39,027 nucleotides of DNA from Oscillospiraceae bacterium. Lineage in GTDB: Bacteria; Bacillota; Clostridia; Oscillospirales; CAG-272. The DNA lies in contig SVRH01000005.1 in NCBI GenBank assembly GCA_015064925.1, forward strand, positions 1 to 39,027, given 5' to 3'. Below the pieces are notes generated by a model, which was not told where the DNA came from, did not search any database, and saw only the letters and a program-made list of their open reading frames with translations. The translations under genes were made by a program, and so were the position numbers. This document shows positions 337 to 18,412 of this stretch, piece by piece. Every line of letters starts with the position of its first letter. Positions within the stretch are counted from its first letter, which is position 1.

Positions 337-846
337 TTATTTACCTTTGAGTGTCGGAATTTTAGTTCCCTTGGCATTTACACCAAGGATAATAGCACCG
401 AGGAACAAAGCTCCGCCTATTATGGAGGTGCCATATTTAATAATGTTTCCTATGAATTCTTTGTTTTCGGTATCCTTGGCAGAAATCTTGTCCGCTACTA
501 AAATCATTTTATCGGTGATATCAGATCTTTCTTCGGGAGAGATGTCATCTTTTTTTAGTACTTCGCTTAAGCTACTAAGTATGAGTTTGTATGCCTCGAT
601 GGCTTCCTTTTGGCTTTCGCTGTTCTCTTTGAGTGCAGCGTCGCACATCGCATTTAACTGAACTACCATATTTGAAGCGAGTTCTGCATATGCCGGGAAT
701 TGATTTATTATGGCAATTGCCACATCTTTATCCATATTAGGAATCAAAGAGACAAATTCCATAATTTTATCTTTTGATAAATTTCTGAACGACTCAATAT
801 TCAGAGCTTTAAGTACTTGCTCCTGTGTAATAAGTTTCTGTGACAT
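337..846 (-). CDS. Hypothetical protein with C-terminal transmembrane segment; last gene of the TcmP operon
   Basis: 169-aa ORF; C-terminal hydrophobic stretch IIKYGTSIIGGALFLGAIILGV; 19-nt gap to the upstream rSAM gene. Confidence 0.7.
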   Translation of the reverse strand: MSQKLITQEQVLKALNIESFRNLSKDKIMEFVSLIPNMDKDVAIAIINQFPAYAELASNMVVQLNAMCDAALKENSESQKEAIEAYKLILSSLSEVLKKDDISPEERSDITDKMILVADKISAKDTENKEFIGNIIKYGTSIIGGALFLGAIILGVNAKGTKIPTLKGK

Positions 847-865
847 ATTTTCACCGTCCTTATTT

Positions 866-1633
866 TTATGTTTCTTCGGTTATAGTTCCGTCTTTGATAT
901 GGAATGCGATTCCGTGCCGTTGACAGAACGCCACTACTTCCGTTGCACACCGGTTATAAAAACTCTTGTGTTCTTTATACGCAGAAACATCTTTGCTATA
1001 GTTGGTTCTTCCGAAAATGATTTTATCGGCAAAAGACACAGTTTCTAGTATAGCAGACAAATCTTGCTCTATAAGGTTGGGAGTAGGATAAGGTTCTATG
1101 CTAACCCAAGTTTTGCATCCACGCTCGCTCAATGCTCGTAATGCTTGTATGCGCTCGGCATAAGGGGCGGCACCAGGCTCCATACGTTGTCTATATTCCT
1201 CATCTAAGGATATAAGTGTAATTCCATATTCATTCTCCATCGAGCAATCGGCAAGCTCAATTGGGAGAATGCCTTTCGTCAGTACTGTACATTTGATCCC
1301 CGAAGCATTGAGTTTATTTATGGCAGCAATACTCATTGTAGATATTTCTTCGTAGCCGTACATAAATGGGTCAGTCGTAAAACAAAGCTGAACCGACTTG
1401 ATTTTATCTTTTAAACGAGGTATTTCTTCATCCAATATCTCCAAGGTATTTGACACGATACGCGGTTCAAGCCAATCCTCATATGACGAAATCTCACCGA
1501 AACGTTTTTTCATCATATAGGCGTAACACGGATATTTACAACCGTGGGCGCAACCCAAGACGTGATTCATTGTATAATCGCCGTATTCCACTCCGGTTTT
1601 GTATAACATTGTTTTTCTTGTTATGCTTTTCAT
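866..1633 (-). CDS. Three-Cys-motif radical-SAM-like protein (Gp37/Gp68-like family, TcmP partner)
   Basis: GCAHGCKYPCYAY cysteine motif; ATG at 1633 preceded by GAGGTGGAACGG; start/stop overlap (ATGA) with the TcmP gene. Confidence 0.75.
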   Translation of the reverse strand: MKSITRKTMLYKTGVEYGDYTMNHVLGCAHGCKYPCYAYMMKKRFGEISSYEDWLEPRIVSNTLEILDEEIPRLKDKIKSVQLCFTTDPFMYGYEEISTMSIAAINKLNASGIKCTVLTKGILPIELADCSMENEYGITLISLDEEYRQRMEPGAAPYAERIQALRALSERGCKTWVSIEPYPTPNLIEQDLSAILETVSFADKIIFGRTNYSKDVSAYKEHKSFYNRCATEVVAFCQRHGIAFHIKDGTITEET

Positions 1634-2829
1634 CCGTTCCACCTCAATTCCGTGGTTTTACCCTTTTCGTCTGCAAAGAACGAGGAGGTGCGCCCTGTGT
1701 TTGTTTTGTCGGGAGTACGCCGAACTATGAGTTGTCCGCTTTTTTCCAAATCTTTGAATATTGCTTTCACAGTTTGAGTGCGACAAACAACACCGTAAGT
1801 ACTGTAAAAATCCGCCATAATTGGATTCATGCGCTTAAATGATGTGATGCCCGAAAGAAAGCCTGTTACCTTCTCCCGGATGTCTTCTTCGTCAATTGCT
1901 TGGTTTTCTACATTTTCTTCAAACAAGGACATTTGACCTCCGCGTTGAATGTCTTGCATAAACTCCCAACGTCCGAAAATGTTATCGACCATAAGCAACG
2001 CCCCATCGGCGTGATTGGTTGCGTGAATCATCCTATATTTAGGAACTTGTCCTTCTTTGATTCTTAAAGGCATATTCAGCACATAGGCATAACTTTGACG
2101 CATACGTCTGCAATATGCCTCGGCAAACTCTGCCTCTGCTTCGTAAGCGGTGATAGTACCTTTGCGCTTTTTCTCAATGATATCAACCCAATAATCTCCA
2201 CCGGCAATTTTATCGAGCGCAAGCTTGGATTTTTCGTCGGGAGATAATTGTGTACTGTCATACTCGACTAGGTCTTCCAAAATATCATCTTCAAACTTCA
2301 CGCCCAATACACGGCATCCTTCTCGGATGAATCCAAAAGAATTCATATTAATCAGCAACTCGATACTGTTGAATCCGTGAGTGGCAAAAGAATCAAACAA
2401 CGAATAATCGAGCGCCTTAATTCCATAAGGGTCAATATAAAGGAAAACATTGCAGCCGTTCTTGTTCTTCAAGATGCCTTCAATTTGCTCCTCATATTTA
2501 CCGGATATTATATTCACATCGGAATAATCTTTTAGATTTTCTGTGAGATCGTGAGCATAGTTCAAGTCGATAAAATAGGATTGGATATTGCTTTGCGTCA
2601 TTGTTGTCTGCCCCAAGCAATCCTCAATGGTGTGCAGAGCGATAAGTGGAGAACCCGGGTTGCCGTCTTCAAAGGCTCCTTTGCCAGCAAAACAATCAAC
2701 ATATACGATGGCTCGCCTTGTATGAAGTATTTTTTGGAAATAAGGTTTTAGGTAATGACCCAACAACGCATCCTTAACTTCTGACCACGGTTTCTTCACC
2801 TTGAAGAAATCATCATTTTTCTTTGCCAA
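1630..2829 (-). CDS. tcmP: Three-Cys-motif partner protein TcmP (methyltransferase-like)
   Basis: N-terminus VKKPWSEVKDALLGHYLKPYFQKIL, then VYVDCFAGKG (MTase motif I-like) and FLYIDPYG (motif IV-like); TTG start after AGGAGG. Confidence 0.75.
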   Translation of the reverse strand: MAKKNDDFFKVKKPWSEVKDALLGHYLKPYFQKILHTRRAIVYVDCFAGKGAFEDGNPGSPLIALHTIEDCLGQTTMTQSNIQSYFIDLNYAHDLTENLKDYSDVNIISGKYEEQIEGILKNKNGCNVFLYIDPYGIKALDYSLFDSFATHGFNSIELLINMNSFGFIREGCRVLGVKFEDDILEDLVEYDSTQLSPDEKSKLALDKIAGGDYWVDIIEKKRKGTITAYEAEAEFAEAYCRRMRQSYAYVLNMPLRIKEGQVPKYRMIHATNHADGALLMVDNIFGRWEFMQDIQRGGQMSLFEENVENQAIDEEDIREKVTGFLSGITSFKRMNPIMADFYSTYGVVCRTQTVKAIFKDLEKSGQLIVRRTPDKTNTGRTSSFFADEKGKTTELRWNG

Positions 2830-2846
2830 AGTGGTGCCTCCTATCG

Positions 2847-3287
2847 TTAGTTTTCGGACAAATTACCTTGGGTATTTTTAATTCTCAAAGTAACCTTAAA
2901 ATTCTCTTCCGGGAACAGCGAATCGTGTTCACGGCATCTTGCTGCCTCTGCTTTTATAACGCTTTCCACGGCGTGTTTGCCGTATTCGTCAAGACGTAGA
3001 TATGCCATAATCGTCTCGTAGAAACTCTCCTCGGCTTCCCATATGCCGAGTTGCTCTATATCCTCTTCCGTCATCTTAGGCGAAGAGGGGTCATTGGACG
3101 AGCCGAGAATATAATCTATCCTTCTATCAAATATGTCTGAAAGCGCATCGAGCGTTTCAAAGTTCGGCTCTCGTTTGCCGATCTCCCACATTGCAACCGT
3201 TCCCTTGGAAACGCCCAAAAGCTCCGCGAGCTGCACCTGGGTCATATTCTTTTCTTTTCGTAATTCTTTCAATCTGTGAGCAAACAT
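2847..3287 (-). CDS. XRE/CI-like helix-turn-helix transcriptional regulator
   Basis: MFAHRLKELRKEKNMTQVQLAELLGVSKGTVAMWEIGKREPNFETLDALSDIF; RBS GAGGTGATGAA. Confidence 0.9.
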   Translation of the reverse strand: MFAHRLKELRKEKNMTQVQLAELLGVSKGTVAMWEIGKREPNFETLDALSDIFDRRIDYILGSSNDPSSPKMTEEDIEQLGIWEAEESFYETIMAYLRLDEYGKHAVESVIKAEAARCREHDSLFPEENFKVTLRIKNTQGNLSEN

Positions 3288-3304
3288 TTCATCACCTCGC
3301 ATAA

Positions 3305-3340
3305 ATTATATCACGAATCGTGAGTATTGTCAAGTGTTTT
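3305..3340 (-). promoter_or_regulatory. Promoter of the HTH-TcmP operon with palindromic operator TCACGA-A-TCGTGA in its spacer
   Basis: Minus strand reads TTGACA-ATACTCACGATTCGTGA(17)-TATAAT; palindrome at 3311-3323. Confidence 0.8.
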
Positions 3341-3393
3341 CTAACACTTTGATGGTGCTTGCGATATTTTTTTGAAGAAAAAGATAACTTGCT

Positions 3394-3452
3394 GTGAGAT
3401 TTGCTATTGACAAAGATAACTAAATGTTGTATAATATACTTGTAAATCTCAC
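3394..3452 (+). promoter_or_regulatory. Rightward promoter TTGACA-N17-TATAAT flanked by GTGAGATTT/AAATCTCAC inverted repeats
   Basis: TTGACA 3407-3412, TATAAT 3430-3435; inverted repeats 3394-3402 and 3444-3452; direct repeat AAAGATAACT at 3380 and 3412. Confidence 0.8.
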
Positions 3453-3468
3453 GAAAGGAGAGAATTTT

Positions 3469-3657
3469 ATGAAAAACGAGACAAAACCGTCGATGATGAC
3501 CATCAAGCAGATAGCAAAAACGGGGCTGATGCCCGAAAATGCTCTCCGTCAACTTTTGAAGGAAGGCAAACTGCCTGTTGTCTATATCGGCAAAAAAGCT
3601 CTCGTCAACTATTCCAAGTTGTGCGAGCTTCTCAATCGGCTCGGCGATACCGAATGA
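3469..3657 (+). CDS. Small DNA-binding protein, excisionase/AlpA-like
   Basis: 62 aa MKNETKPSMMTIKQIAKTGLMPENALRQLLKEGKLPVVYIGKKALVNYSKLCELLNRL; RBS AAAGGAG. Confidence 0.7.
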   Translation: MKNETKPSMMTIKQIAKTGLMPENALRQLLKEGKLPVVYIGKKALVNYSKLCELLNRLGDTE

Positions 3658-3690
3658 CCGATAGAAAATTTAAAGAAAGGAGGAAACGGA

Positions 3691-5988
3691 ATGAAAACCC
3701 AATACGCCAATCTGCCGCCCCTGTTGAAGAAGGAAGGCTTGTTTTGCTTATGGCAATACGAAGTTCGTGACGGCAAAAAGACCAAGGTTCCGTATTGTGT
3801 CCGTGGTTATCGTGCTGATCCAGGTAACAAAAGTACATTTTCAAAGTTTGACCAAGTTATTAGCCTTGCCAACGGATATGACGGAATCGGCATCGGTGTT
3901 TTTGATGACATATGCGCCGTAGATATCGACCATTGTGTAGAAGACGGTGTGCTTTCAGAAATGGCTGACGATATCGTAAAAATGATGGACTCCTATACCG
4001 AGTATAGCCCCTCCGGTACGGGTGTGCGCATCTTTTTCAAGGCAAGCGGTCTGTCCTATGACAAAGAGCGTTACTACGTCAATAATCGCAAATTCGGTCT
4101 TGAAATCTATGTTTCCGGTTATACAAACAAATTTGTAACCGCTACCGGAAATGTACTTATCGACCGAGAAGTTGAAGACCGAACCGAGGCTCTTTTGCTC
4201 GTGCTTGAAAAGTATATGGTCAAGCCGACACAGTTATATACTCGCCGTGAGGATGTTCCCGGTAGCTTTCTTTCAGACGAGTCCGTAATTGCCAAGGCAA
4301 GTGCATCCAAGCAGGGTGAAAAGTTCTCGGCGCTTTGGTATGGGGACACATCTGCATACGGAAGTCAAAGCGAAGCCGATCTTGCCCTCTGCTCCATTCT
4401 TGCATTTTGGTGTGGCGGTGATATTGAGCAGATGGATAGACTCTTCCGCCAATCCGATCTTATGCGAGAAAAATGGGAGAGGGAGGATTATAGAATGAAC
4501 ACATTGAACCGAGCCGTGGCAATGACCAAGGAATTTTATAAGCCTCTCGGTCGAACCGCTCCGGCAGAGGATTTTAACGATATCTCTATTTTTCTTGAAG
4601 AAGCCACTCCTGAACGCAATGACCGTTACCCTTGGACGGACATTGGTGGCGGACGGCTGTTTGCGGATTGCTTTGAGAGCATTGCCAGGTATGTCCCCGA
4701 GAAGAAGAGCTGGTACTGTTACAAAGACGGCGTGTGGTCTCCCGACAGCGGTGCGCTCCGCACGATGGAGCTTTGTAAGGCGTTAGCGGATGCATTAATC
4801 GTATATGCGGTATCCATTCATGATGAACGCCAAAGACAAGAGTTTATGAAATACTGCACCAAATGGCAGACGCGACGTACGCGAGAAACGCTACTCAAAG
4901 ATGCCCAAGGCGTACACCCCATATCCCTCTCGGAATTTGATTGCGACCCGTATGCCTTCAACTGTAAGAACGGCACATTGCACCTTGATACGATGGAATT
5001 TACCGAACATCGCCCAGAAGACCGCTTGTCTAAGATCTCAAATGTGGCATATGACCCTTCCGCATATAGTTCTCGGTTTGAAAGCTTTGTATCTGAGATT
5101 ATGAGCGGAGATGTCGACAAAGCGAGATTTCTTCAAAAGTCTCTCGGTTACGGCATCAGCGGAGATACTCGCTACGAGTGTATGTTCATTATGTACGGAG
5201 CTACTACCCGTAACGGTAAAGGCACCTTATGTGAGAGCGTACTGAAGGTTCTCGGCAATTACGGTTGTACCGCAAGACCGGAAACTTTGAGTATCAACGC
5301 CAACAGCAACAGCCAGACCCCGAGCGAAGATATCGCAAGGCTTGCAGGGGTACGCTTTGCCAACATTTCCGAGCCTGGTAAGGGACTCCTTCTTAACGGA
5401 GCAAAGGTCAAAAATATGACGGGTAACGATACTATCAACGCTCGTTTCCTTCACGAAAACAGCTTTGACTTCGCTCCTCAATTCAAACTCTACATCAACA
5501 CCAACTACCTTCCCGTCATTAACGATATGACTCTTTTCAGCAGCGGACGTGTAGTCATTATTCCTTTTGAAAGGCACTTTGAAGAAGCCGAGCAAGACAA
5601 GACTTTGAAAACGGAATTCTCAAAGCCGGAAGTTCAAAGCGCAATCCTCAATTGGCTTGTAGGCGGCTATCGTATGCTGATGAAAGAAGGCTTGTCGCAA
5701 CCGCAAGCGGTAAAGGAAGCAACTGCTTCTTATGAACACGAAAGCGATAAGATTGCTATGTTTGCGGAGGACAATCTTATTGAGGACAAACGCTCCGAGG
5801 TTCGTACCGCCGAAGTCTATAGTCGATACAAGGAGTGGTGTATGGACAACGGACACCGTGCCGAAAGCATGAAGAACTTCAAGCAAGGACTCATGACACA
5901 AGGCTCGGTTGTCCGCAAGCGACCGAGGGGCGGTGGTAGCGAAACCACAATGCTCATCGGCTTCAAACTCGTCAGCGACTTCCTTTAA
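3691..5988 (+). CDS. Phage/plasmid PrimPol-SF3 helicase (P4-type primase, replication initiator)
   Basis: N-terminal AVDIDHC / YSPSGTGVRIF PrimPol-like motifs; C-terminal MYGATTRNGKGTLCESVL Walker A and NTNYLPV. Confidence 0.85.
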   Translation: MKTQYANLPPLLKKEGLFCLWQYEVRDGKKTKVPYCVRGYRADPGNKSTFSKFDQVISLANGYDGIGIGVFDDICAVDIDHCVEDGVLSEMADDIVKMMDSYTEYSPSGTGVRIFFKASGLSYDKERYYVNNRKFGLEIYVSGYTNKFVTATGNVLIDREVEDRTEALLLVLEKYMVKPTQLYTRREDVPGSFLSDESVIAKASASKQGEKFSALWYGDTSAYGSQSEADLALCSILAFWCGGDIEQMDRLFRQSDLMREKWEREDYRMNTLNRAVAMTKEFYKPLGRTAPAEDFNDISIFLEEATPERNDRYPWTDIGGGRLFADCFESIARYVPEKKSWYCYKDGVWSPDSGALRTMELCKALADALIVYAVSIHDERQRQEFMKYCTKWQTRRTRETLLKDAQGVHPISLSEFDCDPYAFNCKNGTLHLDTMEFTEHRPEDRLSKISNVAYDPSAYSSRFESFVSEIMSGDVDKARFLQKSLGYGISGDTRYECMFIMYGATTRNGKGTLCESVLKVLGNYGCTARPETLSINANSNSQTPSEDIARLAGVRFANISEPGKGLLLNGAKVKNMTGNDTINARFLHENSFDFAPQFKLYINTNYLPVINDMTLFSSGRVVIIPFERHFEEAEQDKTLKTEFSKPEVQSAILNWLVGGYRMLMKEGLSQPQAVKEATASYEHESDKIAMFAEDNLIEDKRSEVRTAEVYSRYKEWCMDNGHRAESMKNFKQGLMTQGSVVRKRPRGGGSETTMLIGFKLVSDFL

Positions 5989-5993
5989 CACAA

Positions 5994-6082
5994 TGTCGCA
6001 ACTTGTCGCAGGTTCTATAGGTTATTTTCAAAAAACGCTCTTTTATAGAAATGACATATTTTACTTGCGACAATCTGCGACA
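5994..6082. other. Candidate replication origin: paired TGTCGCA iterons flanking an AT-rich core
   Basis: TGTCGCA at 5994 and 6004; inverted TGCGACA at 6066 and 6076; 10-bp spacing on each side; AT-rich ~50 bp between; immediately 3' of the helicase gene. Confidence 0.6.
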
Positions 6083-6236
6083 GACGTCCTTTACAAGACA
6101 ATTGTGACCTAAGGGGCGGGTCAAATCTGTGGGCGAAAAATAGTGTCCAACGGGTGGGCAGCCCCGCGTACAAAAAGAAATATTCAAAGGGGGTATTACC
6201 CCTAAAACAAACAAATCAAAAAATGGAGGATTTTTT

Positions 6237-6518
6237 ATGAAATTTAGACCTATTTACAACAAAAAATTCCGTGTTACCGCATCTGATAGAGAGGCATTTA
6301 CCACTCAGGACTATACCTGTATGTTCATTTTGCAGACGATGAAGGGACAGCCCGTAGCGGTTTCCGTGTGCAACGATCTTGATTGCCACATTTGGAGGGT
6401 GCAGTACGGCTTCTCCACCGTCTACTTTGGTGAGTACGCCGAAGCGATGGATTTTTGCCGTGAGCATTTCTGCGACCTTACCGGAAACAAGCTGAAGAAG
6501 GCAAAGGAGAGAAAATAA
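6237..6518 (+). CDS. Hypothetical small protein
   Basis: 93-aa ORF preceded by TGGAGG; tail-to-head with next ORF. Confidence 0.65.
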   Translation: MKFRPIYNKKFRVTASDREAFTTQDYTCMFILQTMKGQPVAVSVCNDLDCHIWRVQYGFSTVYFGEYAEAMDFCREHFCDLTGNKLKKAKERK

Positions 6519-6808
6519 TGTTTCGGCTCTCAAATTATCTTCAGAAGCATTTGAAAGGTCATATCGATTTCGATACATTCGTGCTGATCGCTGTTATCCC
6601 TCGCAAAAAGAAGGATACCGTGGTTCTCTTGGCACCGAAGTATGAAACCGAATACACCTATTTCGCACTTCAAAACGGCAAAAATTACACATATCATTCT
6701 TGCCTCGACACCCTGCTGACGGCAGCACATAAATGCGGTATCAGCCGTTTCAAGCTGTGGCGTTGTCGCAAACGCTATGAAAATTTCAAAAGGAGAGGTC
6801 TTATATGA
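6518..6808 (+). CDS. Hypothetical small basic protein
   Basis: 96-aa ORF; 1-nt overlap with upstream and 4-nt overlap with downstream ORF. Confidence 0.65.
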   Translation: MFRLSNYLQKHLKGHIDFDTFVLIAVIPRKKKDTVVLLAPKYETEYTYFALQNGKNYTYHSCLDTLLTAAHKCGISRFKLWRCRKRYENFKRRGLI

Positions 6809-7086
6809 AAAAATATTATCCGCTCATTGATATGGACACAACCGGGACAATAAAAGTGCCGATGTTTCCTGCCTACGATTACAAAACAGCGTTGAGAACA
6901 AGCAATTTCGCACTCGGAGAAGTCTCTTCCCACCATTACCGCTTGATTGCCGTAACCCCTCACGCTATGAGAGATTATCTCTCTTATGACATCCGTTGTC
7001 CCAAGTGCGGTGCAACGATGGATATGACCGAACCGCACGAAGGTGAGTATGTTCTTGCAGAGTATACTTGCGAAAACTGTCAATAA
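6805..7086 (+). CDS. Hypothetical small protein with zinc-ribbon-like CPKC...CENC
   Basis: 93-aa ORF; IRCPKCGATMDM...EYTCENCQ. Confidence 0.65.
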   Translation: MKKYYPLIDMDTTGTIKVPMFPAYDYKTALRTSNFALGEVSSHHYRLIAVTPHAMRDYLSYDIRCPKCGATMDMTEPHEGEYVLAEYTCENCQ

Positions 7087-7106
7087 ATTTTTGGAGGTAT
7101 AAAACT

Positions 7107-8045
7107 ATGACTATTGACGCTATTAAAGAAAGAGATTACGCCGTGGCTATGCCCGAATACGATTATGCATTTTGGAATGCCGTAAAGCGTAAGCCCCACA
7201 ATGCAAAAGAGCTTGAAAAGGCTAGCAGTAACGAAGCCGGTACATATCTTCCTCTTCAGGCAAATTCCAAGATGAACGCTGCCCTCAAGAGAGAAAGCGT
7301 GTTCCGCTCACTTGCTACCATTGCTTATATGAGAGAACCCGGCGGTATCGTTCTTGCAAAGTATTGCGATTCGGAGAGTTGTTGGGTCCCCGAACACGGA
7401 ATGTATACTTTTTCGGAGAACCCCGGAGAATTCACCGAATACAACATCAAGGCACACAAGCTCGGAACGCTTCTCAAATATGACGAGGCATTTATGGTAG
7501 ATGTCGGTCTTAATATGGAAAACCACCTGATTGACAACATTGCCAAGAGCTTCGGTGCTATGGAAGATGCCGCCTATGTAAACGGAAATGGTGATATTCA
7601 GCCTACCGGAATTCTCCACAGCACTCGCGGAGCACAGGTCGGCACAACCACCGCGAATCTCACCTATGAGGACGTGGTCAAGCTCTACTTCTCGGTCAAG
7701 CCTGAATACCGCAAGAGAGGTGTTTGGATGATGAACGATGAGACCGCTTATTATCTCCGCACCCTCAAAGACGAAGGCGGTAACTACATTTGGAATCACG
7801 CCAACGATACCATCCTCGGCAAGCGTGTATACATCTGCAACGATATGCCGAGCATCGGTGCCGGAAACAAGCCTATCGCATTCGGTGACTTTTCCTACTA
7901 TTGGATTATTATCCGTGACGAGGTTAGCGTAAAGGTTCTCAAGGAGCTTTATTACGATGATATGCAGATCGGCTATATTGCTCGTGAGTATCTCGATGCA
8001 AAGCTCATCCGCCCCGAGGCAATCAAGGTCATTCAAATGAGCTAA
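7107..8045 (+). CDS. Phage major capsid protein, HK97 fold
   Basis: MEDAAYVNGNGDIQPTGIL, YRKRGVWMMNDETAYYLRTLKDEGGNYIWN, LGKRVYICNDMP, IAFGDFSYYWIIIRDEVSVKVLKELYYDDMQIGYIAREYLDAKLIRPEA; RBS TTTGGAGG, ATG at 7107. Confidence 0.88.
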   Translation: MTIDAIKERDYAVAMPEYDYAFWNAVKRKPHNAKELEKASSNEAGTYLPLQANSKMNAALKRESVFRSLATIAYMREPGGIVLAKYCDSESCWVPEHGMYTFSENPGEFTEYNIKAHKLGTLLKYDEAFMVDVGLNMENHLIDNIAKSFGAMEDAAYVNGNGDIQPTGILHSTRGAQVGTTTANLTYEDVVKLYFSVKPEYRKRGVWMMNDETAYYLRTLKDEGGNYIWNHANDTILGKRVYICNDMPSIGAGNKPIAFGDFSYYWIIIRDEVSVKVLKELYYDDMQIGYIAREYLDAKLIRPEAIKVIQMS

Positions 8046-8053
8046 AAAGCACA

Positions 8054-8094
8054 TCACCGCAAGGGTATATATTCCCTGTATGCTCTTGCGGTGA
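8054..8094. terminator. Hairpin downstream of capsid gene
   Basis: TCACCGCAAG ... CTTGCGGTGA, 10-bp stem; no clear T-tract. Confidence 0.5.
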
Positions 8095-8219
8095 CATTGT
8101 CATAACCCTAAAATTGATACAAAATACAGGCGCAATCTTTGTGTACTATATAATCGCAATAACCGTTGCAATTTAAGGGATATAGAGGTAATATGTATGC
8201 TACCAAAGGAGGTGAATAT

Positions 8220-9524
8220 ATGGAACGAATCATACGGCAAGTGCAATTCCCGATGCAATCGCAGCCGAAGGCAAAAAGGGTTGTAGCTTATGCCCGTGTG
8301 TCCACGGGAAAGGATGCAATGCTGCATTCACTTTCCGCACAAATCAGCTACTACAGTGATTTGATTCAAAAGCACAGCGGTTGGCAATATTGCGGAGTAT
8401 ATTCCGATGAAGCTACCACGGGAACGAAAGGTAACCGAAAAGGCTTTCAGGATATGATAAAACAATGCCAATCTGGAAACATCGACCTCATTATTACAAA
8501 GTCGATTTCACGCTTTGCCCGTAATACTGTTACGCTTTTGCAAACGGTGCGAGAGTTGAAGGAACTTGGCGTTGACGTTTATTTTGAAGAGCAGAACATC
8601 CATACGATGAGCGCAGACGGCGAATTGATGATGACCATCCTTGCATCGTATGCCCAAGAAGAAAGCCTATCCGCAAGCGAAAATCAAAAATGGCGTGTAC
8701 GGAAAGCGTTTGAAAACGGAGAGCTTATGAACCTACGCACGATGTTCGGTTATTCCATTTCCAAAAGTAGCATCACCATACACCCTGAAAATGCAGAAAT
8801 CGTAAGGGAGATATTTCGCAGATTCATAGATGGCGATAGTATGGGCGGTATTGCAAATAGCCTCAACGAGAGAGGCGTAATAGGAGCTTTAGGCGGTGTT
8901 TGGGATGCTCAACGCATACGGCAGATACTATCCAATGAAAAATACACGGGGAATGCACTTCTTCAGAAGCATTACCGAAACAACCACCTGGAAAAGAAGA
9001 AAACCAAGAATCAAGGTGAATTGCCGTTATATTATGCGGAAGGAACTCACGAAGCCATCATCGACCAAGCAACCTTCGACCGAGCCGGAAAAAGGCTACG
9101 AGAATTGGAGTACGAAAACTCAAAGCGCAAAAGACCTCAAAGCTCACCCTTTACAAGTCGTATTCGGTGTGGCATATGTGGTGCTAATTATAAGCATTGT
9201 GTGAACCTCGGCAAGCATTTTTGGCAATGCTCCACCTATATGAAAAAGGGCAAGCAGTTCTGTCACGCCAAGCGCATATCGGATGAAGTTATACATAGGC
9301 TTACGGCAGAGGTGCTTGGTACGGAAGAATACGATGTGGGTGTGCTTGACAGCCGTATAACGCTTATACAAGCGGAGGAAAACCACACCATAGTTTTCCG
9401 CACCGCCGAAGGAGAAGAAATCGTTAAACAATGGGAATTGCCCTCACGCTCTGAAAGTTGGACAGCGGAGATGCGAGAGGCAGCAAGCGAAAGAAAAAAG
9501 AAAGCGAGGAAAAGTAATGGCTAG
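8220..9524 (+). CDS. Large serine recombinase 1
   Basis: VVAYARVSTGKD catalytic motif, KSISRFARNT, CGICGANYKHC zinc ribbon; RBS AAAGGAGGTG. Confidence 0.92.
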   Translation: MERIIRQVQFPMQSQPKAKRVVAYARVSTGKDAMLHSLSAQISYYSDLIQKHSGWQYCGVYSDEATTGTKGNRKGFQDMIKQCQSGNIDLIITKSISRFARNTVTLLQTVRELKELGVDVYFEEQNIHTMSADGELMMTILASYAQEESLSASENQKWRVRKAFENGELMNLRTMFGYSISKSSITIHPENAEIVREIFRRFIDGDSMGGIANSLNERGVIGALGGVWDAQRIRQILSNEKYTGNALLQKHYRNNHLEKKKTKNQGELPLYYAEGTHEAIIDQATFDRAGKRLRELEYENSKRKRPQSSPFTSRIRCGICGANYKHCVNLGKHFWQCSTYMKKGKQFCHAKRISDEVIHRLTAEVLGTEEYDVGVLDSRITLIQAEENHTIVFRTAEGEEIVKQWELPSRSESWTAEMREAASERKKKARKSNG

Positions 9525-11097
9525 AGCGGTTACGGTCATACCACCTACTATAAATCCATTAACAAAGATGCCTACCGCCACAGTAAGCAAACGGCGTGTT
9601 GCAGGGTATGCTCGTGTGTCTACCGATAGCGACGAACAGTTCACCTCTTACGAGGCGCAAATCGATTATTACACTCAATTCATAATGCGCCATAGTGATT
9701 GGGAGTTCGTTAAGGTATATACGGACGAAGGTATCTCGGGCACGAACACCAAGCGCAGAGAGGGTTTCAATCAAATGATAACCGATGCTCTCGACGGCAA
9801 AATAGACCTGATCGTTACAAAGTCGGTCAGCAGATTCGCACGAAACACTGTAGATAGCCTTGTGACTGTAAGAAAGCTCAAAGATAAGGGTGTAGAGGTT
9901 TTCTTTGAAAAGGAGAACATTTATACGCTCGATAGCAAGGGAGAACTTCTCATAACGATTATGTCCTCTCTTGCCCAGGAGGAGAGCCGTTCCATTTCCG
10001 AGAATGTGACTTGGGGACAGCGCAAGCGCTTTGCAGACGGCAAGGTGATGCTTCCGTACAAACGATTCCTTGGCTACCGAAAAGGCGCAGATGGCTTTCC
10101 CGAGATTGTTCCCGAGGAGGCAGAAATCATAAAGCGGATATACCGCCGTTATATGAGTGGGCAGACCACTTGTGCCATTGCTGCGGAATTGACCGCAGAC
10201 GGAATCCCTACGCCTGGAGGCAAGGCAACCTGGCAAGCGAGTACAGTTGAGAGCATTCTTACGAACGAGAAATATAAGGGGGATGCACTCCTTCAGAAAT
10301 GCTTCACAACGGATTTTCTTACGAAAAAGAAGAAGGTCAACGAGGGCGAAGTTCCGCAATACTATGTTGAGCATAGCCACGAAGCTATTATTCCGCCGAA
10401 CGAGTGGGAAGATGTTCAGACCGAGATACAACGCAGAAAGCGAATAGGTCGCAAGTATAGCGGAAACGGCATCTTTGCTTCTCGCATTGTATGCGCCGAG
10501 TGCGGTTCGTTCTTCGGTGCCAAGGTGTGGCATTCCAACAACGAAAAATACCGCAAGACCATATGGCGGTGCAACCATAAATTCGCCGGAGAGCATCGTT
10601 GCCAAACGCCGTTTGTGGAAGAAAAGACGCTCAAAGATAAATTCGTTACGGCATTTAATACCTTATGGGATACGAGAGCGGAGATAATCGAGAGCCTTCA
10701 TTTTGCCCAAATGTTACTCACGGATAGCACCGCTATTGATACGGAGCTTGAAGAATTGACCGCCGAGCTTGAAATCATCGTTGAACTAACTCGCAAGTGC
10801 ATCGAGGAGAATTCCACCTTGGCACAAGATCAGAACGAATACACCGCTCGATACAACGGCTATGTGGAGCGGTACGAAAGTACCCAAGCAAGAATTCAAG
10901 AGCTTCAAAAGCAGAAAGCCGAACGGCAAGAAAAGTACGATGGCATTGAATCCTTTATCACCACTTTTGCAAGCCAAAACAAGTCATTGACGGAATTTGA
11001 TGAAGGAATATGGTGTCTGCTCTTGGAGACGGTGACGGTGCATACAAGCGGTACATTGGAGTTTCGGTTTAAGGATGGAAGCGCTTTTACAATATAA
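9517..11097 (+). CDS. Large serine recombinase 2
   Basis: RVAGYARVSTDSDEQ, KSVSRFARNT, CAECGSFFGAKV zinc ribbon, C-terminal coiled-coil region; 8-nt overlap with recombinase 1. Confidence 0.93.
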   Translation: MARAVTVIPPTINPLTKMPTATVSKRRVAGYARVSTDSDEQFTSYEAQIDYYTQFIMRHSDWEFVKVYTDEGISGTNTKRREGFNQMITDALDGKIDLIVTKSVSRFARNTVDSLVTVRKLKDKGVEVFFEKENIYTLDSKGELLITIMSSLAQEESRSISENVTWGQRKRFADGKVMLPYKRFLGYRKGADGFPEIVPEEAEIIKRIYRRYMSGQTTCAIAAELTADGIPTPGGKATWQASTVESILTNEKYKGDALLQKCFTTDFLTKKKKVNEGEVPQYYVEHSHEAIIPPNEWEDVQTEIQRRKRIGRKYSGNGIFASRIVCAECGSFFGAKVWHSNNEKYRKTIWRCNHKFAGEHRCQTPFVEEKTLKDKFVTAFNTLWDTRAEIIESLHFAQMLLTDSTAIDTELEELTAELEIIVELTRKCIEENSTLAQDQNEYTARYNGYVERYESTQARIQELQKQKAERQEKYDGIESFITTFASQNKSLTEFDEGIWCLLLETVTVHTSGTLEFRFKDGSAFTI

Positions 11098-11101
11098 AAA
11101 T

Positions 11102-11134
11102 ACAGCAGATAGGAACCAATAACCTATCTGCTGT
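11102..11134. terminator. Bidirectional terminator between convergent recombinase 2 and C5-MTase genes
   Basis: ACAGCAGATAGG...CCTATCTGCTGT perfect 12-bp stem. Confidence 0.75.
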
Positions 11135-11140
11135 TGTTTG

Positions 11141-12544
11141 TTAGTCTATAGGATCGAACAGGCTTAATTGTGTGCTGTCAATAGTTCTTGTGCGTTTGGG
11201 CTTTTCTTCTGCTACCGAAGAACTAAATCTACCGCGTTTTTGAACTCTAGAGCGTTTTTCAATGTCTTCTTCACTCCACTCGGAGGAAATGGAAAGCAAA
11301 ACCTCTTTGAGGCGTTCATTTATTGAAAGATTGCGCTCACGACTACGGCGTACAATACCAAAGCAACCTGTGGGCGATATGTAAATATCCTCAGGAGCTT
11401 CCGGAGAAACGATATCCATCATATTTCCAAATACACTTTCCTCGGGGGTTGCTGTACAATTGATTCTTACGCCGAATCCAATGTTCGCAATATCTTTGCC
11501 GAAATCAAAAAAACACCCTTCATCAGTTTTCCATTTGATAAAATAGCAACTTCCATCACCATCATCGATGATACTGGCTGTTTCATGCTGGGCATTTACT
11601 AGCCGTTCACCAATCCATCGAACAACCGGAACTGCCCATGAGTTGCCTATTGCTTGATATCGATTCGTTTTCTTTGCACCAGGCAAGTCGGTATAGTTGT
11701 CTGGAAATCCCATCAACCTTTCACATTCCAAGGGGGACAATCTTCTAATGCGCTTGTCTTGTACAACAAACAAAGAACCGTTATTTGCGGCTGCATTTCC
11801 GTTCCATTTTGTACCGTATGCGGAATACAAGCAATCGGTGTATTCTCTAAAGACTTCAAACTCGTGCCCATCCTTTACAAAGCGCAAAGGGTATTTAGGA
11901 TATTCCAATGCAAGATGCGTGTGTTTTTCAAACAAGATATTTTCGGGATAAAAATCCGTACCGCCTGCTAATAAATACAAACGGCGTCTCTGCTGGGGCA
12001 ACCCAAAATATTTCGCATCCAGTACACGCCAAGCAACATTTCTCTTGGGGCCTCTAACAATTCCGGCATTGGGCCATTTTCCGCATTCAATAACCTCGCT
12101 CAACCCAGCCAACGAGGACACGAGACAACCAAAAGCATTTGTTTTGTCGGTTAGGACACCCTCAACATTTTCCCAAAAAACCATGGTACGATTTTTATTT
12201 TGTTGTATGCGGATTTCGTCATTAGCTTCTATGATATCAACAAATCTTAATGTGAGATTTCCTCGATCATCATTTAAGCCGTTTTTCCAACCTGCAAGTG
12301 AAAATGCTTGGCAAGGAGTTCCTCCGCAAATCATATCCGGTGCAGAGATTGTATGTTGCAAAATCAAATCCGGTATAAGATTCATATCTCCCAGGTTCTT
12401 TATATTGGGATATTTTTTAGATAGTACAGTTGCCGGGAAAGCAGCTATCTCGGAAAACCATTGAAACTCAAAATCAAGCGGTTTCCAAGCGACTGATGCC
12501 GCCTCTATACCAGAGCAAATACTACCAACAGTTTTTATTGGCAT
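11141..12544 (-). CDS. DNA (cytosine-5) methyltransferase
   Basis: GSICSGIEAASVAW, GGTPCQAFSLAGW, FWENVEG, PQQRRRLYL, RLSPLECERLMGFPDNYT, YQAIGNSWAVPVV motifs. Confidence 0.93.
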   Translation of the reverse strand: MPIKTVGSICSGIEAASVAWKPLDFEFQWFSEIAAFPATVLSKKYPNIKNLGDMNLIPDLILQHTISAPDMICGGTPCQAFSLAGWKNGLNDDRGNLTLRFVDIIEANDEIRIQQNKNRTMVFWENVEGVLTDKTNAFGCLVSSLAGLSEVIECGKWPNAGIVRGPKRNVAWRVLDAKYFGLPQQRRRLYLLAGGTDFYPENILFEKHTHLALEYPKYPLRFVKDGHEFEVFREYTDCLYSAYGTKWNGNAAANNGSLFVVQDKRIRRLSPLECERLMGFPDNYTDLPGAKKTNRYQAIGNSWAVPVVRWIGERLVNAQHETASIIDDGDGSCYFIKWKTDEGCFFDFGKDIANIGFGVRINCTATPEESVFGNMMDIVSPEAPEDIYISPTGCFGIVRRSRERNLSINERLKEVLLSISSEWSEEDIEKRSRVQKRGRFSSSVAEEKPKRTRTIDSTQLSLFDPID

Positions 12545-12649
12545 AATTATCTCTCCAAGAGTTTTTCTTATATATTCGCTCTTTTTTTGCTTAAAGTCAA
12601 GTCAAATTCTGAAATTATTGCTTATTCTCCACAATGCACAAAAGAGCTT

Positions 12650-13582
12650 TTATTCTTCGTCTTTAAAATGCTCGAGTCGATATAACAGTTGTTTTCTCCA
12701 TTCGGCAATATCGTACCAACCACAACCGACACAACCGCATTCAGCTTTCTTTCCTTTTTGAGGAATGCTTGTGTCCCAATCCTCCGAGCCGGAATAATAA
12801 AATTTAATTCCAAACGGATATCCGCGCTTTCCCGTTTGAAAACAGGTTCGACACACCTCACGTTTTTGCTGATTACGTTGGTTAGTCAATAACTGAAATT
12901 TTTTACGAATTTCTTCGTCCGTCATCGAATCAAGATTTTCACTCTTAGTTTCATCATCCCAACGGATTTCAGAAAATTTGTGATCAGGCAAACAATGAGC
13001 ATTTGCGGTATCTTCGTATACATCGACACCACCCAAAACCTTGATGATTCTTTTTCTCAAAGCAGGAGACCACGTTTCGTAGCCATTTCCTTCAAGGCTG
13101 CCACGCTCAATAGGCAATAAAATAAGGTGCGTTTTATTGGCTTTGCAGTTAGGACAATAGTGTTTAGTGTCTGTTGCGATTGTATAGCCAAACTCTTTGA
13201 GGTCTTGAATTCTTCTTGCCCAGTTCGGATTTTGGGGAAGTGTACATTTTACGCACTGCCAACCGCCACGAATCAAACTATCATAGAAAGCCTTTGTGGT
13301 ATCTGCATTGGGTTTTTCTGCCGTCCAAAAAGCGTCTTGCTTTTTCTTCCAAGCGGTAAAATTTTCGGGGCGCATTTGCTCATATACGGCATTCAGGTGT
13401 TGAGTAACATCATCATCGGTTTTTAGTGATACACCCGTCCTTCTATATTCGACAGGTACCCAACCATCCCATACAAGTTCACCGTATGTAAATTGGACAT
13501 GAAGATATTCTTCGGATGCTTTAGAGTGTAGTTTTCGATTCTTATCTACAATTCTGATGTTTTCATTTAAAACGATTGCCAT
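12650..13582 (-). CDS. Putative restriction endonuclease (HNH-like, Cys-rich) paired with the C5-MTase
   Basis: Upstream of and co-directional with the MTase; WQCVKC...YCPNC, LPDHKFSEIRW...LTNQRNQQKREVCRTC; ATG at 13582 after GGAGGTGACG. Confidence 0.6.
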   Translation of the reverse strand: MAIVLNENIRIVDKNRKLHSKASEEYLHVQFTYGELVWDGWVPVEYRRTGVSLKTDDDVTQHLNAVYEQMRPENFTAWKKKQDAFWTAEKPNADTTKAFYDSLIRGGWQCVKCTLPQNPNWARRIQDLKEFGYTIATDTKHYCPNCKANKTHLILLPIERGSLEGNGYETWSPALRKRIIKVLGGVDVYEDTANAHCLPDHKFSEIRWDDETKSENLDSMTDEEIRKKFQLLTNQRNQQKREVCRTCFQTGKRGYPFGIKFYYSGSEDWDTSIPQKGKKAECGCVGCGWYDIAEWRKQLLYRLEHFKDEE

Positions 13583-13782
13583 ATCGTCACCTCCATCGAC
13601 TATAACTTCAAGGAACAAAATTTCATAATATTAAGATAATAATTAATTATATCACAACTCAAGAGTTTTTTCTATACCTTTTTGTAAAAAATCCTGATAA
13701 TCATGTTGTTTCGTTCACAAAAAGTTATCTGGACTATTTCCGCACCTTGTGGTATAGTGTTGTGCTACAAGGAGGTGCGCTT

Positions 13783-14058
13783 ATGAAAAGTATACTTGAA
13801 GAACTATGGTATGGCAATGTTTGCCCCAACACCGGATGCCGAGAAGCAACGAAAGAGGCAAAGGAACTGATGGGGTATATTGCCGATCACCATGATAACC
13901 TACAGGCAACGCTTACGGAGAAACAAAAGGATATCCTTGAAAAGTTCGATGATTGCTACGCCGAGCTGACGGATATAAACGAGCGTGAAATATTCGTGTA
14001 TGCGTTTCGGCTAGGAGCGAGGATTGCCATTGAAGTTATGAGCCTCGACATTGAATAA
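13783..14058 (+). CDS. Small DUF6809-like protein of Firmicutes mobile elements
   Basis: MKSILEELWYGNVCPNTGCREATKEAKELMGYIADH...; RBS AAGGAGG. Confidence 0.55.
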   Translation: MKSILEELWYGNVCPNTGCREATKEAKELMGYIADHHDNLQATLTEKQKDILEKFDDCYAELTDINEREIFVYAFRLGARIAIEVMSLDIE

Positions 14059-14094
14059 GCAAAAAAGGGGTGCAACGGATGCACCTCTTTTGCT
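14058..14094. terminator. Terminator-like hairpin
   Basis: GCAAAAAAGGGGTGCAacggaTGCACCTCTTTTGC. Confidence 0.65.
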
Positions 14095-14110
14095 CTCTTA
14101 TGATAAAAAC

Positions 14111-14151
14111 AAGAACCATAACTCGATACATTGTATCAAAATTATGGTTCT
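14111..14151 (-). terminator. Palindromic tRNA-Ser terminator that also contains the recurrent element-end motif
   Basis: AAGAACCATAA ... TTATGGTTCTT stem followed (minus strand) by GTTTTTAT; inner GATACA-T-TGTATC. Confidence 0.65.
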
Positions 14152-14155
14152 TATT

Positions 14156-14248
14156 TGGCGGAGTAGGAGAGATTTGAACTCTCGCGCCGTTATTCACGAC
14201 CTACACCCTTAGCAGGGGCGCCTCTTCGGCCAACTTGAGTACTACTCC
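14156..14248 (-). tRNA. tRNA-Ser (anticodon GCT)
   Basis: GGAGTAG...CTACTCCGCCA acceptor, CGCCC-CTGCTAA-GGGTG anticodon arm, long variable arm, GAGAG-TTCAAAT-CTCTC T arm, encoded CCA. Confidence 0.95.
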
Positions 14249-14396
14249 AGCGCCGTAGGTCATTATAGCATATCTTTTCGGGAAATGCAAGATGTTTTTC
14301 AAAAAATAATATTTATTTTTCCGAAAATATTGCGCATATTCGGCCTGCAGACCTTCATACAATGGCATCATGAAAAAAATATCGGAGGTACAAGAT

Positions 14397-15335
14397 ATGC
14401 CAAACGTTCACGCACCCGAAGGAATGCTCTTTGATACCAAGGAAAACAACGAATACGTAGGATCTCTGCAGGGGCTGGAGAGAGCCATGATGCAGGGAAA
14501 GATCCTGGAGGGCATTGCCCTTCTTTGCGACGCCGCCATGAACCTCAGCTTCAAATTCGGCAGCATCTACGGCCGCATGGATCGCAGTGAGGTAGCTTTC
14601 ACCCCCGACGGCTCACCGCCCAAGGACATCGCCGTGATCTCCCGCGTGGGAAAGGCGGTCTGCTTTAAGGTCATCGGCTTTGAAAGGGGCAAAAACGGCG
14701 ATCCCATCGCCCTGCTCTCACGCCGCGCCGCCCAAGAGGAATACATACGCTCGGTCTTTTCCACCCTTGTTCCGGGCGACATCCTGCCCTCTCGCGTGAC
14801 ACACCTTGAGCCCTTCGGCGCCTTTGTGGACATCGGCTGCGGCGTCATTTCCCTGCTTTCCATCGACTGCATTTCTGTCTCCCGCATCTCCCATCCCAAG
14901 GACCGCTTTACCGCGGGTCAGTACATCCGCACGGTGGTCAAATCGGTGGACTATGACGAGCAGCGCATTTTCGTTTCCCACAAGGAGCTGCTCGGAACGT
15001 GGGAGGAAAACGCCGCCAGATTCACCGCCGGTCAAACCGTCACGGGCATCGTGCGCAGCATCGAGGACTACGGCATTTTCGTGGAGCTGGCGCCCAATCT
15101 GGCAGGTCTTGCCGAGCTGAGAGAAGGCGTTTCGGTGGGTCAGCAGGTGGCAGTCTACATCAAAAGCATCCTGCCCGAGCGTATGAAGATAAAGCTGGTG
15201 CTCATCGACAGCTTCAAAGCGGAGCACCGCGCGACCATGCCCATCGAATACTACGTGCCCGATTCGGTTTCCCACATGGACCTCTGGCAATACTCCCCCG
15301 ACCGCTGTCACAAGCTGGTGGAGAGTGTGTTTTAG
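14397..15335 (+). CDS. S1 RNA-binding domain protein
   Basis: LVPGDILPSRVTHLEPFGAFVDIGCGVISLL and GQTVTGIVRSIEDYGIFVELAPNLAGLAEL S1 repeats; RBS CGGAGGT. Confidence 0.8.
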   Translation: MPNVHAPEGMLFDTKENNEYVGSLQGLERAMMQGKILEGIALLCDAAMNLSFKFGSIYGRMDRSEVAFTPDGSPPKDIAVISRVGKAVCFKVIGFERGKNGDPIALLSRRAAQEEYIRSVFSTLVPGDILPSRVTHLEPFGAFVDIGCGVISLLSIDCISVSRISHPKDRFTAGQYIRTVVKSVDYDEQRIFVSHKELLGTWEENAARFTAGQTVTGIVRSIEDYGIFVELAPNLAGLAELREGVSVGQQVAVYIKSILPERMKIKLVLIDSFKAEHRATMPIEYYVPDSVSHMDLWQYSPDRCHKLVESVF

Positions 15336-15356
15336 AATGTTATTTTTATAGCATCC

Positions 15357-15545
15357 GCTTTTTCTTTGCGTGCTGCAGGCACAAAGAAAAAAGCTTAGCA
15401 AAAAAGAAATGCCATAGGAAAATCGCTGTTGCGACAGCGACCAAGGCTCCGCCTTTGGAAACCGCAAACTTTTGAAAAAGTTTGATCAAAACTATAAATC
15501 AAAACAAAAGAACGCCTCTTGGGGCACCCTCAGTAAGGAAGGTGC
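15357..15545. repeat. Intergenic cluster of imperfect hairpins (REP/MITE-like)
   Basis: GCTTTTTCTTTGCGTGC/GGCACAAAGAAAAAAGC; TCGCTGTtgcgACAGCGA; CCAAGGCtccGCCTTTGG; AAACTTTTGAAAAAGTTT; TTGGGGCACC...GGTGCCCCAA. Confidence 0.6.
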
Positions 15546-15756
15546 CCCAAGGTGGCTCTTATATCAAAATTTAATAATTGATTTCGTTAAGCGGTATAGC
15601 TATTGGCTATGCCGTTTTTCGTTACAAACCATTTTCAATGTGTGTAACCCACTATGACACTTTCAGCGTAAAGATGTCATTGAGTTTTGCATACGATTTC
15701 GCATTTATTTAAACCATTCTCTAACAGAGCGCTTTTTATATTTTTAAAATTAATAA

Positions 15757-15798
15757 GAAAAAACAAAGCTCGTCGTTTTTTTGACGAGCTTTGTTTTA
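15757..15798. terminator. Terminator of the AlwI-family endonuclease gene
   Basis: AAACAAAGCTCGTC...GACGAGCTTTGTTT. Confidence 0.8.
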
Positions 15799-15822
15799 GG
15801 TCACACTATTTAAATACGAACA

Positions 15823-17511
15823 CTATGATGCTAACCACATATCAACACAAGCTTGAATACCACAACGCCAATTATTCTCATCAACTGCTTTTTCACATAA
15901 TTTCAAAGCGCAATCGAGAAAATGACGAATGTCAGTCGGTGTAGGTTGAGTTTTATAACTGTAGGAATTCTCAACAAGTTTCATAAACTGATCTAATTCA
16001 AGAGGTATTATCTTAGATTTTCCACCATAAAGAGCAATTGACAGATGGTTTAGTACGTAGAAATGAGCCAATGTTGCTGCATTAATTGTCGGTGCAATAA
16101 ATAAGCAATAAGTATCTTTGCCCGATTTTTTCTTTAACTGACCATAATGACGTGCGACGGGTTCTCCTTCAGCTTCATACTGACGCTGTCCGGACTGTAA
16201 TGTAACTTCAACAGCCAAAGAAAAATCATCATAATCACACTCAATATCCGGCATATTTCCAGATGCGGTGGATAGAGGCTGACCTATATCATCAAATTTG
16301 AAGTTGCCCTTGATATTGCCGCCATCAAGCATAGTCATTGCTCTCCAAGTATTATACTCAAACATAAGCGGAGCATCATAGTATTCATCCGAAACGATTT
16401 CGTTAAATGTATCAATAATTTCTGAATATAGAGCGTATGACTTGATTTCAGCAACTTGTTCGTGAATAACATTCTCTTTGTGTTGAGCGACAATGTCATC
16501 TCGCAAATCTTTTAATGCCTCAATATCGTAGTTCGCTAAATCACGTCTTGTAAACTCACTCATACGAAGAATAACATCTATAATGTTTTCGACATTATCT
16601 GTATATAGTTCGGGAGTGGCGGCATTAAATAAATGTGCTTTATAACTTTCCTCATCATCCACAAAAACAGGATTTCGATTAACATTAGTAAGGATAAATT
16701 CGACATCTCGCTTTTTGTCATTGAAAATTGAAATTGTCCTACTTTTGTGTGCAATGGATACAAGTCCGGTAAATCTTAAATATCTAAAACAAGCATCAGC
16801 ATAATCACGCATATTGCCTTTTTGAGTTTTCACAAAGGTATTTATGCTGGCATCTCTTGTTTCTCTTGTCCTTGTTCTACCTTCGGCAATTCTGTCATTA
16901 TGAATTTCTAACACGGCATTTGCCCATACATCATTTACAAATCGTTTGTACTGTCCACGATGCAACTCTTTATCTTTTCTGAAATTCAAGATTTTATCTT
17001 TAACTTCTTCGTACTTGTGATAGTCTGTGATTTGAACAGCAAAGATTTTCAACTCGTCAAAGGTTAAATATTCAAGATCATAGATTAATCGCAATACTTC
17101 CAAATATGGACGCACAAAAAATGTACCGCTTATTTTGACGTTCTCTGTGTGATAAGGCGAAGGCAACTGAAATTTGAGCAGTTGGCGCAGGAAAATCTCT
17201 TGTGGTCTTTTCCCCGAAATTAAAGCACGACCAGCATCAGTTAGTGCAATATTCGGTTTCAAGTCAACAAAACCTAGTGCTTTCGGCGCACGATTTATTC
17301 TGTCACGTGCACTAAATGCTTTATCAGAGGGAGAGCCTGTTCCCTCGAAAAAGCTACTTTCCGCAAGTTCATCAATAAATTGTTCTTGTGTAATTCTATT
17401 CCACGGTTTTCCTTCAAATTTATCACAAAGCAATCCAATTTCAGGGATCATCTTTGCAGGAGTTCGTGGTGAAGTTGTAAAAAACAAAACTTTATTGTCC
17501 AGTCTTGCCAT
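15823..17511 (-). CDS. AlwI-family type IIS restriction endonuclease
   Basis: N-terminus FFTTSPRTPAKMIPEIGLL; catalytic-like PDIECDYDDFSLAVEVTL; coupled to a Dam-type MTase; ATG 17511 after GAGGTGATAGGT. Confidence 0.8.
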   Translation of the reverse strand: MARLDNKVLFFTTSPRTPAKMIPEIGLLCDKFEGKPWNRITQEQFIDELAESSFFEGTGSPSDKAFSARDRINRAPKALGFVDLKPNIALTDAGRALISGKRPQEIFLRQLLKFQLPSPYHTENVKISGTFFVRPYLEVLRLIYDLEYLTFDELKIFAVQITDYHKYEEVKDKILNFRKDKELHRGQYKRFVNDVWANAVLEIHNDRIAEGRTRTRETRDASINTFVKTQKGNMRDYADACFRYLRFTGLVSIAHKSRTISIFNDKKRDVEFILTNVNRNPVFVDDEESYKAHLFNAATPELYTDNVENIIDVILRMSEFTRRDLANYDIEALKDLRDDIVAQHKENVIHEQVAEIKSYALYSEIIDTFNEIVSDEYYDAPLMFEYNTWRAMTMLDGGNIKGNFKFDDIGQPLSTASGNMPDIECDYDDFSLAVEVTLQSGQRQYEAEGEPVARHYGQLKKKSGKDTYCLFIAPTINAATLAHFYVLNHLSIALYGGKSKIIPLELDQFMKLVENSYSYKTQPTPTDIRHFLDCALKLCEKAVDENNWRCGIQACVDMWLAS

Positions 17512-17521
17512 ACCTATCACC

Positions 17522-18370
17522 TCAATAATTTTTTACTACGATATGCATTTTATCGTTTTTGAAACGATTTCTAATGTTTACTGCATAGTTTTTGTAATAC
17601 TCATCAAAAATGAAACCACCATATAATTCTTCTGTGAGAGGAGTTTTGCCAATAATCATCAACGCCCTACAAGGAAGATTTCTAAAATCAGCCGCTAAAC
17701 GTCTATGTTCCGCTTCATCAAAACCGTTCATCATATCGATGTTTCCATAGTCGTTGAAGACACAATCGTATGGCGGATCTAAAAAGATAAAATCATCTTC
17801 TTGTGCCATATCAAAAATGCGGCTATAATCACAGTTAAATAATTCTGCGCCTTGCAAAAGCTCACTATGTTGTTGTGTTACAAGTCGAGTGTTAAGATTT
17901 GGGTATCTGCCGAAAGGAACATTGTAATCACCGTTATTATTGTATCTAATCATTCCCGAATAGGCAGTCTTATTGATAAAGAAATACAAAACTCCATCTA
18001 AATATGTATCATCCGGATGATTAAATAGTTCTCTCATACGATAATAAAGTTCCTCATTTGCATTAGGAACTCTCTCATCAGGAGTCAAGGCTTTCAATCT
18101 CTTATATTCTGCCTGATTAAGTTCATACACACGCTGAAGGTCATCCAACTGCTGACGCATAAGAGGATACTGGTCTCGCAACTGAGAATAAAAGGTCATC
18201 AATCGCTCATTTGCATCGTTGATAATAGCGTTTTCAGGTTCAAGATGGAAATAAACTGCACCACCGCCAAAAAAAGGCTCGATATATCTGTTAAAGTCTT
18301 CTGGTATGTATTGAAGAAAACGGGGGATTTCACGAGATTTTCCGCCACGATATTTTAAAACTGGATTCAT
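17522..18370 (-). CDS. Dam-family DNA adenine (N6) methyltransferase
   Basis: MNPVLKYRGGKSREIPRFLQYIP, YIEPFFGGGAVYF, FIFLDPPYDCVF; ATG at 18370. Confidence 0.93.
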   Translation of the reverse strand: MNPVLKYRGGKSREIPRFLQYIPEDFNRYIEPFFGGGAVYFHLEPENAIINDANERLMTFYSQLRDQYPLMRQQLDDLQRVYELNQAEYKRLKALTPDERVPNANEELYYRMRELFNHPDDTYLDGVLYFFINKTAYSGMIRYNNNGDYNVPFGRYPNLNTRLVTQQHSELLQGAELFNCDYSRIFDMAQEDDFIFLDPPYDCVFNDYGNIDMMNGFDEAEHRRLAADFRNLPCRALMIIGKTPLTEELYGGFIFDEYYKNYAVNIRNRFKNDKMHIVVKNY

Positions 18371-18412
18371 AGGTTCAACCTCGCTTTCAACTAGACATAA
18401 TTGCACAAAAAT

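Follow-up and report, generated by a model that had tools for sequence, protein, structure and literature searches.

CX3CX2C is the usual, though not universal, cluster motif of radical SAM proteins, and cf-PICIs, which are capsid-forming phage satellites, are small integrative elements that carry a primase, their own HK97 capsid protein and a slot for accessory genes. TcmP and a three-Cys partner are a common gene pair, yet no paper on the biochemical function of either protein was found in the library that we searched. Two papers there were relevant, and in both TcmP was no more than an annotation; DUF5131 did not appear. One table of NolR-dependent expression names a tcmP gene together with hna (PMC12445080). 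Among PADLOC models, PDC-M30 and PDC-M41 are candidate defence systems for which we found no validation; of the 32 P. aeruginosa strains in which PDC-M30 was reported, 68.8% were phage-resistant, which is a correlation only (PMC10855318).

Here we describe an operon related to these candidates in a window of 39,027 nucleotides, the whole stretch of DNA analysed, from an Oscillospiraceae bacterium (contig SVRH01000005.1). According to the list of open reading frames (ORFs), the operon lies on the minus strand at 337–3287 and encodes, in this order, a helix-turn-helix (HTH) protein, TcmP, a radical SAM protein (rSAM) and a small membrane protein that we call p169. We consider it somewhat better than an even bet that this operon occupies, as its present cargo, an exchangeable defence slot in a small integrative element that encodes a capsid protein. 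A defence-cargo role of the operon is likely, nucleic-acid modification by TcmP and rSAM is plausible, and the data do not support a dedicated module of four genes.

Results

The HTH gene occupies 2847–3287 (minus strand; ORF to 3302), with a likely start at the ATG at 3287, GAGGTGATGA ahead of it as ribosome-binding site and a product of 146 residues; this start agrees with the end coordinate of 3287 given in the preliminary description. After 17 nt follows TcmP (1630–2829, minus strand; 399 residues), which has a TTG start with AGGAGG ahead, and whose stop overlaps the ATG of rSAM (866–1633, minus strand; ORF to 1642) by 4 nt as ATGA. A gap of 19 nt separates rSAM from p169 (337–846, minus strand; 169 residues), the last gene, and the arrangement first described, four genes in one direction with gaps or overlaps of 20 nt or less, is confirmed.

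A leftward sigma-70 promoter at 3305–3333 (minus strand; TTGACA-17-TATAAT, 12/12, with an extended −10, TGn) precedes the operon, and between its −35 and −10 lies the 13-nt near-palindrome TCACGATTCGTGA (3311–3323), a putative repressor operator. A divergent rightward sigma-70 promoter at 3407–3435 (plus strand; 12/12, 17-nt spacer) serves the xis-like and primase genes of the element, while a strong terminator hairpin with 16-nt arms and T-runs on both sides lies 3′ of p169 at 270–305. Together, the divergent promoters, the near-palindrome and the downstream hairpin confirm the operon and make its control by a repressor likely. The operon spans the region from the divergent promoters of the element to its left edge, where a short-repeat array of TTTCAC/GTGAAA units about 18–25 nt apart lies at 100–270, past the terminator.

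Window positions 3291–11140 belong, together with L129, L133 and L157–L164, to a family of integrative elements of about 10 kb. The core of the window element reads on the plus strand from an excisionase-like small DNA-binding protein (3472–3657; TIGR01764, E 8e-4, below cut-off) through a D5/NrS-1-type primase-helicase (3691–5988; PF22763, PF08706, TIGR01613) and a short HK97-fold major capsid protein (7068–8045; PF05065 198 bits, TIGR01554 222 bits) to two large serine recombinases (8166–11097; PF00239, PF07508, PF13408). The order of primase, capsid and serine recombinase is common to these ten related elements, and the capsid protein of the nearest relatives is likewise short (ORFs of 299–334 residues). 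No terminase or portal was found among the ORFs scanned, which were those outside three small ORFs at 6237–7086, and unassigned plus-strand ORFs of sufficient size are absent between 3.4 and 11.1 kb.

Left of this core, and divergent from it, lies a slot that holds other restriction-modification operons in the relatives, whose cargo operons stand in the equivalent position, divergent from the primase. The slot of L129 (primase 61%, capsid 49% identity) contains an Eco57I-type methylase and a ResIII-domain protein, and those of L157, L159–L162 and L164 contain Eco57I-type, type III-like Mod or type I Hsd operons; for L157 the assignment follows from protein starts that barely differ from the ones in L129. 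Of the ten related elements, at least seven carry restriction-modification cargo, and that of the other three (L133, L158 and L163) fell into no assignable class.

Two further observations concern the surroundings of these genes. An insertion-sequence-like gene pair lies between capsid and primase in L162 (7746–9769), so that this copy may be defective. To the right of the window element are a C5 DNA methylase (11141–12544) and an ICEA-like protein (12650–13618), followed further right by an AlwI-type endonuclease (15823–17520) and a D12 methylase (17522–18481); the restriction genes at 11141–18481 surround a tRNA-Ser at 14156.

The HTH protein is of the Cro/C1 type (HTH_3, 64.6 bits). Its homologues are confined to copies of its own element, beyond which generic XRE similarity alone was seen, and the idea that the gene would be conserved next to tcmP was not borne out; as no element-independent homologue was found beside TcmP, we rejected HTH as a partner of TcmP. 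In 14 of 28 other pair loci the gene upstream of TcmP–rSAM is a small XRE gene that differs from HTH; a small XRE gene also comes first in seven cargo operons of related elements, and in the window its position is occupied by the different, 146-residue HTH. The latter would act as the element's own repressor, coupling expression of the cargo to a lysogeny-like switch of the element.

The product of the last gene, p169, has a single hydrophobic segment at about 140–158, predicted to be transmembrane, and a short K-rich tail. A hydrophobic C-terminal segment recurs in 27 of 28 family members, in agreement with the C-terminal transmembrane segment noted at the outset. No family was found for p169 at a meaningful score in Pfam, NCBIfam or PHROG, and the AlphaFold model of this helical protein is poor (pLDDT 57.9), so structural support for any p169 mechanism is lacking. 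Purifying selection, with dN/dS of about 0.08–0.17 in five informative pairs, marks p169 as a real gene. Our scans recovered it at 21 loci of bacterial genomes, at 16 of viral contigs and, besides these, in five plasmids and one phage record; the gene is rare, the 392 genomes of the class giving two convincing matches with the window's copy included. Two candidate identities were discarded. A PADLOC match to GajB (E 6e-4, 16.8 bits) was dismissed as a chance resemblance between helices, and for other members of the family weak and scattered matches were all that appeared. We also dismissed the idea that p169 is the partner of a serine recombinase. Recombinases are neighbours of 10 of 35 p169 loci and of 0 of 21 chromosomal TcmP loci, but this control differs in mobility, and all that the count tells is that p169 travels on such elements.

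The neighbours of p169 change from locus to locus. Upstream of it stand GmrSD pairs (L011, L012, L033), PDC-M33A/B/C (tested in L014, E down to 3e-202; L013 is nearly identical), HEC-05 (tested in L037; L020 by sequence similarity) or a truncated type IIG enzyme (L010), and close homologues, with 60–72% identity, stand behind different, non-homologous systems. Within the window's element p169 is identical (100%) across three copies. Among the TcmP loci read it lies beside tcmP in this element alone, and the conservation of the 169-residue gene at tcmP, proposed earlier as a check, was not seen elsewhere; with its changing partners, this indicates that p169 is portable and not a TcmP component.

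Portability might also mean that p169 is a stand-alone superinfection-exclusion or abortive-infection moron that is found behind cassettes for no other reason than the pooling of such genes by mobile elements, a reading to which we give slightly less than an even chance. It is favoured by solitary copies on actinobacterial plasmids and by lone copies that run antisense in the head/terminase (late) region of four phages (L034, L036, L038, L043). All four of the latter have a promoter-like site 48–52 nt ahead of the p169 ATG (12/12 in L034, 10/12 in L038), clearly above shuffles in L034 and L038 only. Against it, p169 repeatedly starts within a very short distance of the cassette gene ahead of it (an overlap in L012, 18 nt in L013/L014, 9–12 nt in L037/L020), which suggests co-expression of p169 with the cassette and not mere pooling. 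If the operon is cargo of a defence slot, as we prefer, p169 may be a gene in its own right, with a membrane-anchored product that contributes an exclusion or abortive step of its own and can join many systems.

TcmP itself scores above the cut-off of TIGR04474 (110.9 bits, cut-off 53, residues 14–281) and carries the motif VDCFAGKG and an invariant D133-P134-Y135. Its AlphaFold model (pLDDT 83.5, pTM 0.84) has a Rossmann methyltransferase fold, and its Foldseek matches are nearly all SAM methyltransferases, with the best coverage for RlmJ (TM by target 0.48–0.55) and MnmM (TM by target 0.53–0.60), both RNA methyltransferases that match TcmP at the superfamily level with 9–11% identity. The methyltransferase character first suspected from motifs is thereby upheld, and TcmP is predicted to be a class I SAM methyltransferase; its C-terminal H-H-H-E-E region (about 314–397) is a putative winged helix by our own reading of the secondary structure, not by a tool's call. 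TcmP is present in 33 of 399 genomes sampled across the phylum of the window.

rSAM lies above the gathering cut-off of PF04055 (52.5 bits, cut-off 29.5) and below the cut-off of PF07505, DUF5131 (22.2 bits, cut-off 28.9). Its cysteines form a CX3CX3C motif (GCAHGCKYPC), not the canonical CX3CX2C, as do those of 28/28 parseable relatives of the window type, and the DUF5131-type partner beside other TcmPs has CX6CX2C. NifB was not accepted as a CX3CX3C precedent, since the review that prints it once in this form describes it elsewhere as CX3CX2C (PMC9692996). Relatives of rSAM in viral contigs share 60–76% identity.

TcmP and rSAM are a conserved, translationally coupled pair. A TcmP-like gene stands directly upstream in 39 of 39 rSAM loci, a set that excludes the window element's own copies and includes a few loci fetched twice and one DUF5131-type protein; conversely, a three-Cys protein adjoins TcmP in 19 of 21 sampled TcmP regions, and the co-occurrence stated in the preliminary description holds in both directions. 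The window-type rSAM pairs with several divergent TcmP subtypes (18–21% identity between subtypes), and many copies of the pair are located in phages and mobile elements, with some rSAM loci on plain chromosome (L124). Two different TcmP-like genes in tandem, followed by one CX3CX3C rSAM and a type III-like Mod, were seen in L062, L063, L064 and L066. Directly downstream of rSAM, 15 of the 26 loci with enough sequence have a restriction gene of one of four kinds (type III-like Mod, type I HsdM, GmrSD or a HindIII-like endonuclease), and in 11 the next gene is not a restriction gene. Such co-location is not proof of defence. TcmP and rSAM would jointly modify nucleic acid, most likely DNA, and the modification might act against phages or serve as a self mark in concert with restriction systems.

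Two other roles for the pair deserve weighing. rSAM is similar to two radical SAM families that are SplB-like, PA0069 and Rv2578c. Archaeal SplB-like proteins are neighbours of repair proteins (PMC4929162), and this likeness, along with the many copies in phages and mobile elements, would suit a DNA/RNA repair or anti-restriction pair that shields incoming mobile DNA and is not a defence; we think this unlikely, as the repeated position of the pair at the front of restriction operons and in defence slots better fits defence or a self mark. It is similarly doubtful that the pair modifies tRNA or rRNA and defends through altered translation: the best-coverage fold matches, RlmJ and MnmM, speak for such a target, but only at the superfamily level, and the putative winged helix of DNA-binding type and the restriction neighbours point to DNA.

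Discussion

That the four genes form a dedicated defence system, with TcmP–rSAM modifying or sensing phage nucleic acid, p169 as its specific abortive membrane effector and HTH as regulator, agrees with the tight operon, its single promoter and single terminator and the full conservation in three element copies of a p169 that stands last, a frequent effector position, but is very improbable given that p169 is missing from all other TcmP loci read despite its many homologues, that its close homologues follow different systems and that HTH is element-specific. The defence module proposed from the first inspection therefore survives in part: the slot holds defence cargo and the pair resembles PDC-M30/M41, but the four-gene unit does not stand.

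With the operon read as exchangeable slot cargo, what is new is a subfamily with CX3CX3C that is linked to restriction operons, p169 as a family whose partners change, and a family of elements that have this slot. The pair ahead of four kinds of restriction gene makes a hypothesis specific enough to be tested. p169, a family not described before, stays constant while its partners change, and its portability is a new point that can be tested. The element family provides a compact natural slot for defence cargo and a source for harvesting further systems. A bolder proposal, which we rate as a long shot, is that p169 is a swappable membrane effector or tether shared by GmrSD, PDC-M33, HEC-05, type IIG and TcmP–rSAM, and that TcmP with the CX3CX3C rSAM makes a new DNA modification, a self mark for several restriction systems. 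Were the shared p169 module real, one small gene would give unrelated sensors an identical output.

Compared with known systems, the window element is like a cf-PICI in being small and integrative and in having a primase, its own capsid protein and an accessory slot; it is unlike one in its short capsid protein, in using large serine recombinases as integrases and in having no detected terminase or portal. With GmrSD/DUF262 systems, including HEC-05, in which p169 homologues are the last gene (L012, L033/L011, L037/L020), the window shares p169 alone, as no DUF262 gene adjoins it here. TcmP/DUF5131 pairs (PF07505, phage Gp37/Gp68) have the same plan, a TcmP above the TIGR04474 cut-off with a three-Cys radical-SAM-like gene directly downstream, from which the window-type rSAM departs in falling below the PF07505 cut-off, in having CX3CX3C in place of CX6CX2C and in its several divergent TcmP subtypes. 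As for the PADLOC candidates, TcmP matches PDC-M30A (E 9.8e-18, residues 7–144) and the A component of PDC-M41 (E 1.2e-7), and rSAM matches PDC-M30B (E 7.5e-5, weak, over about 54 residues only) and the B component of PDC-M41 (E 2.9e-5), a weak and partial likeness within its first 90 or so residues. TcmP–rSAM is not a validated system but a variant of a known candidate, PDC-M30/M41.
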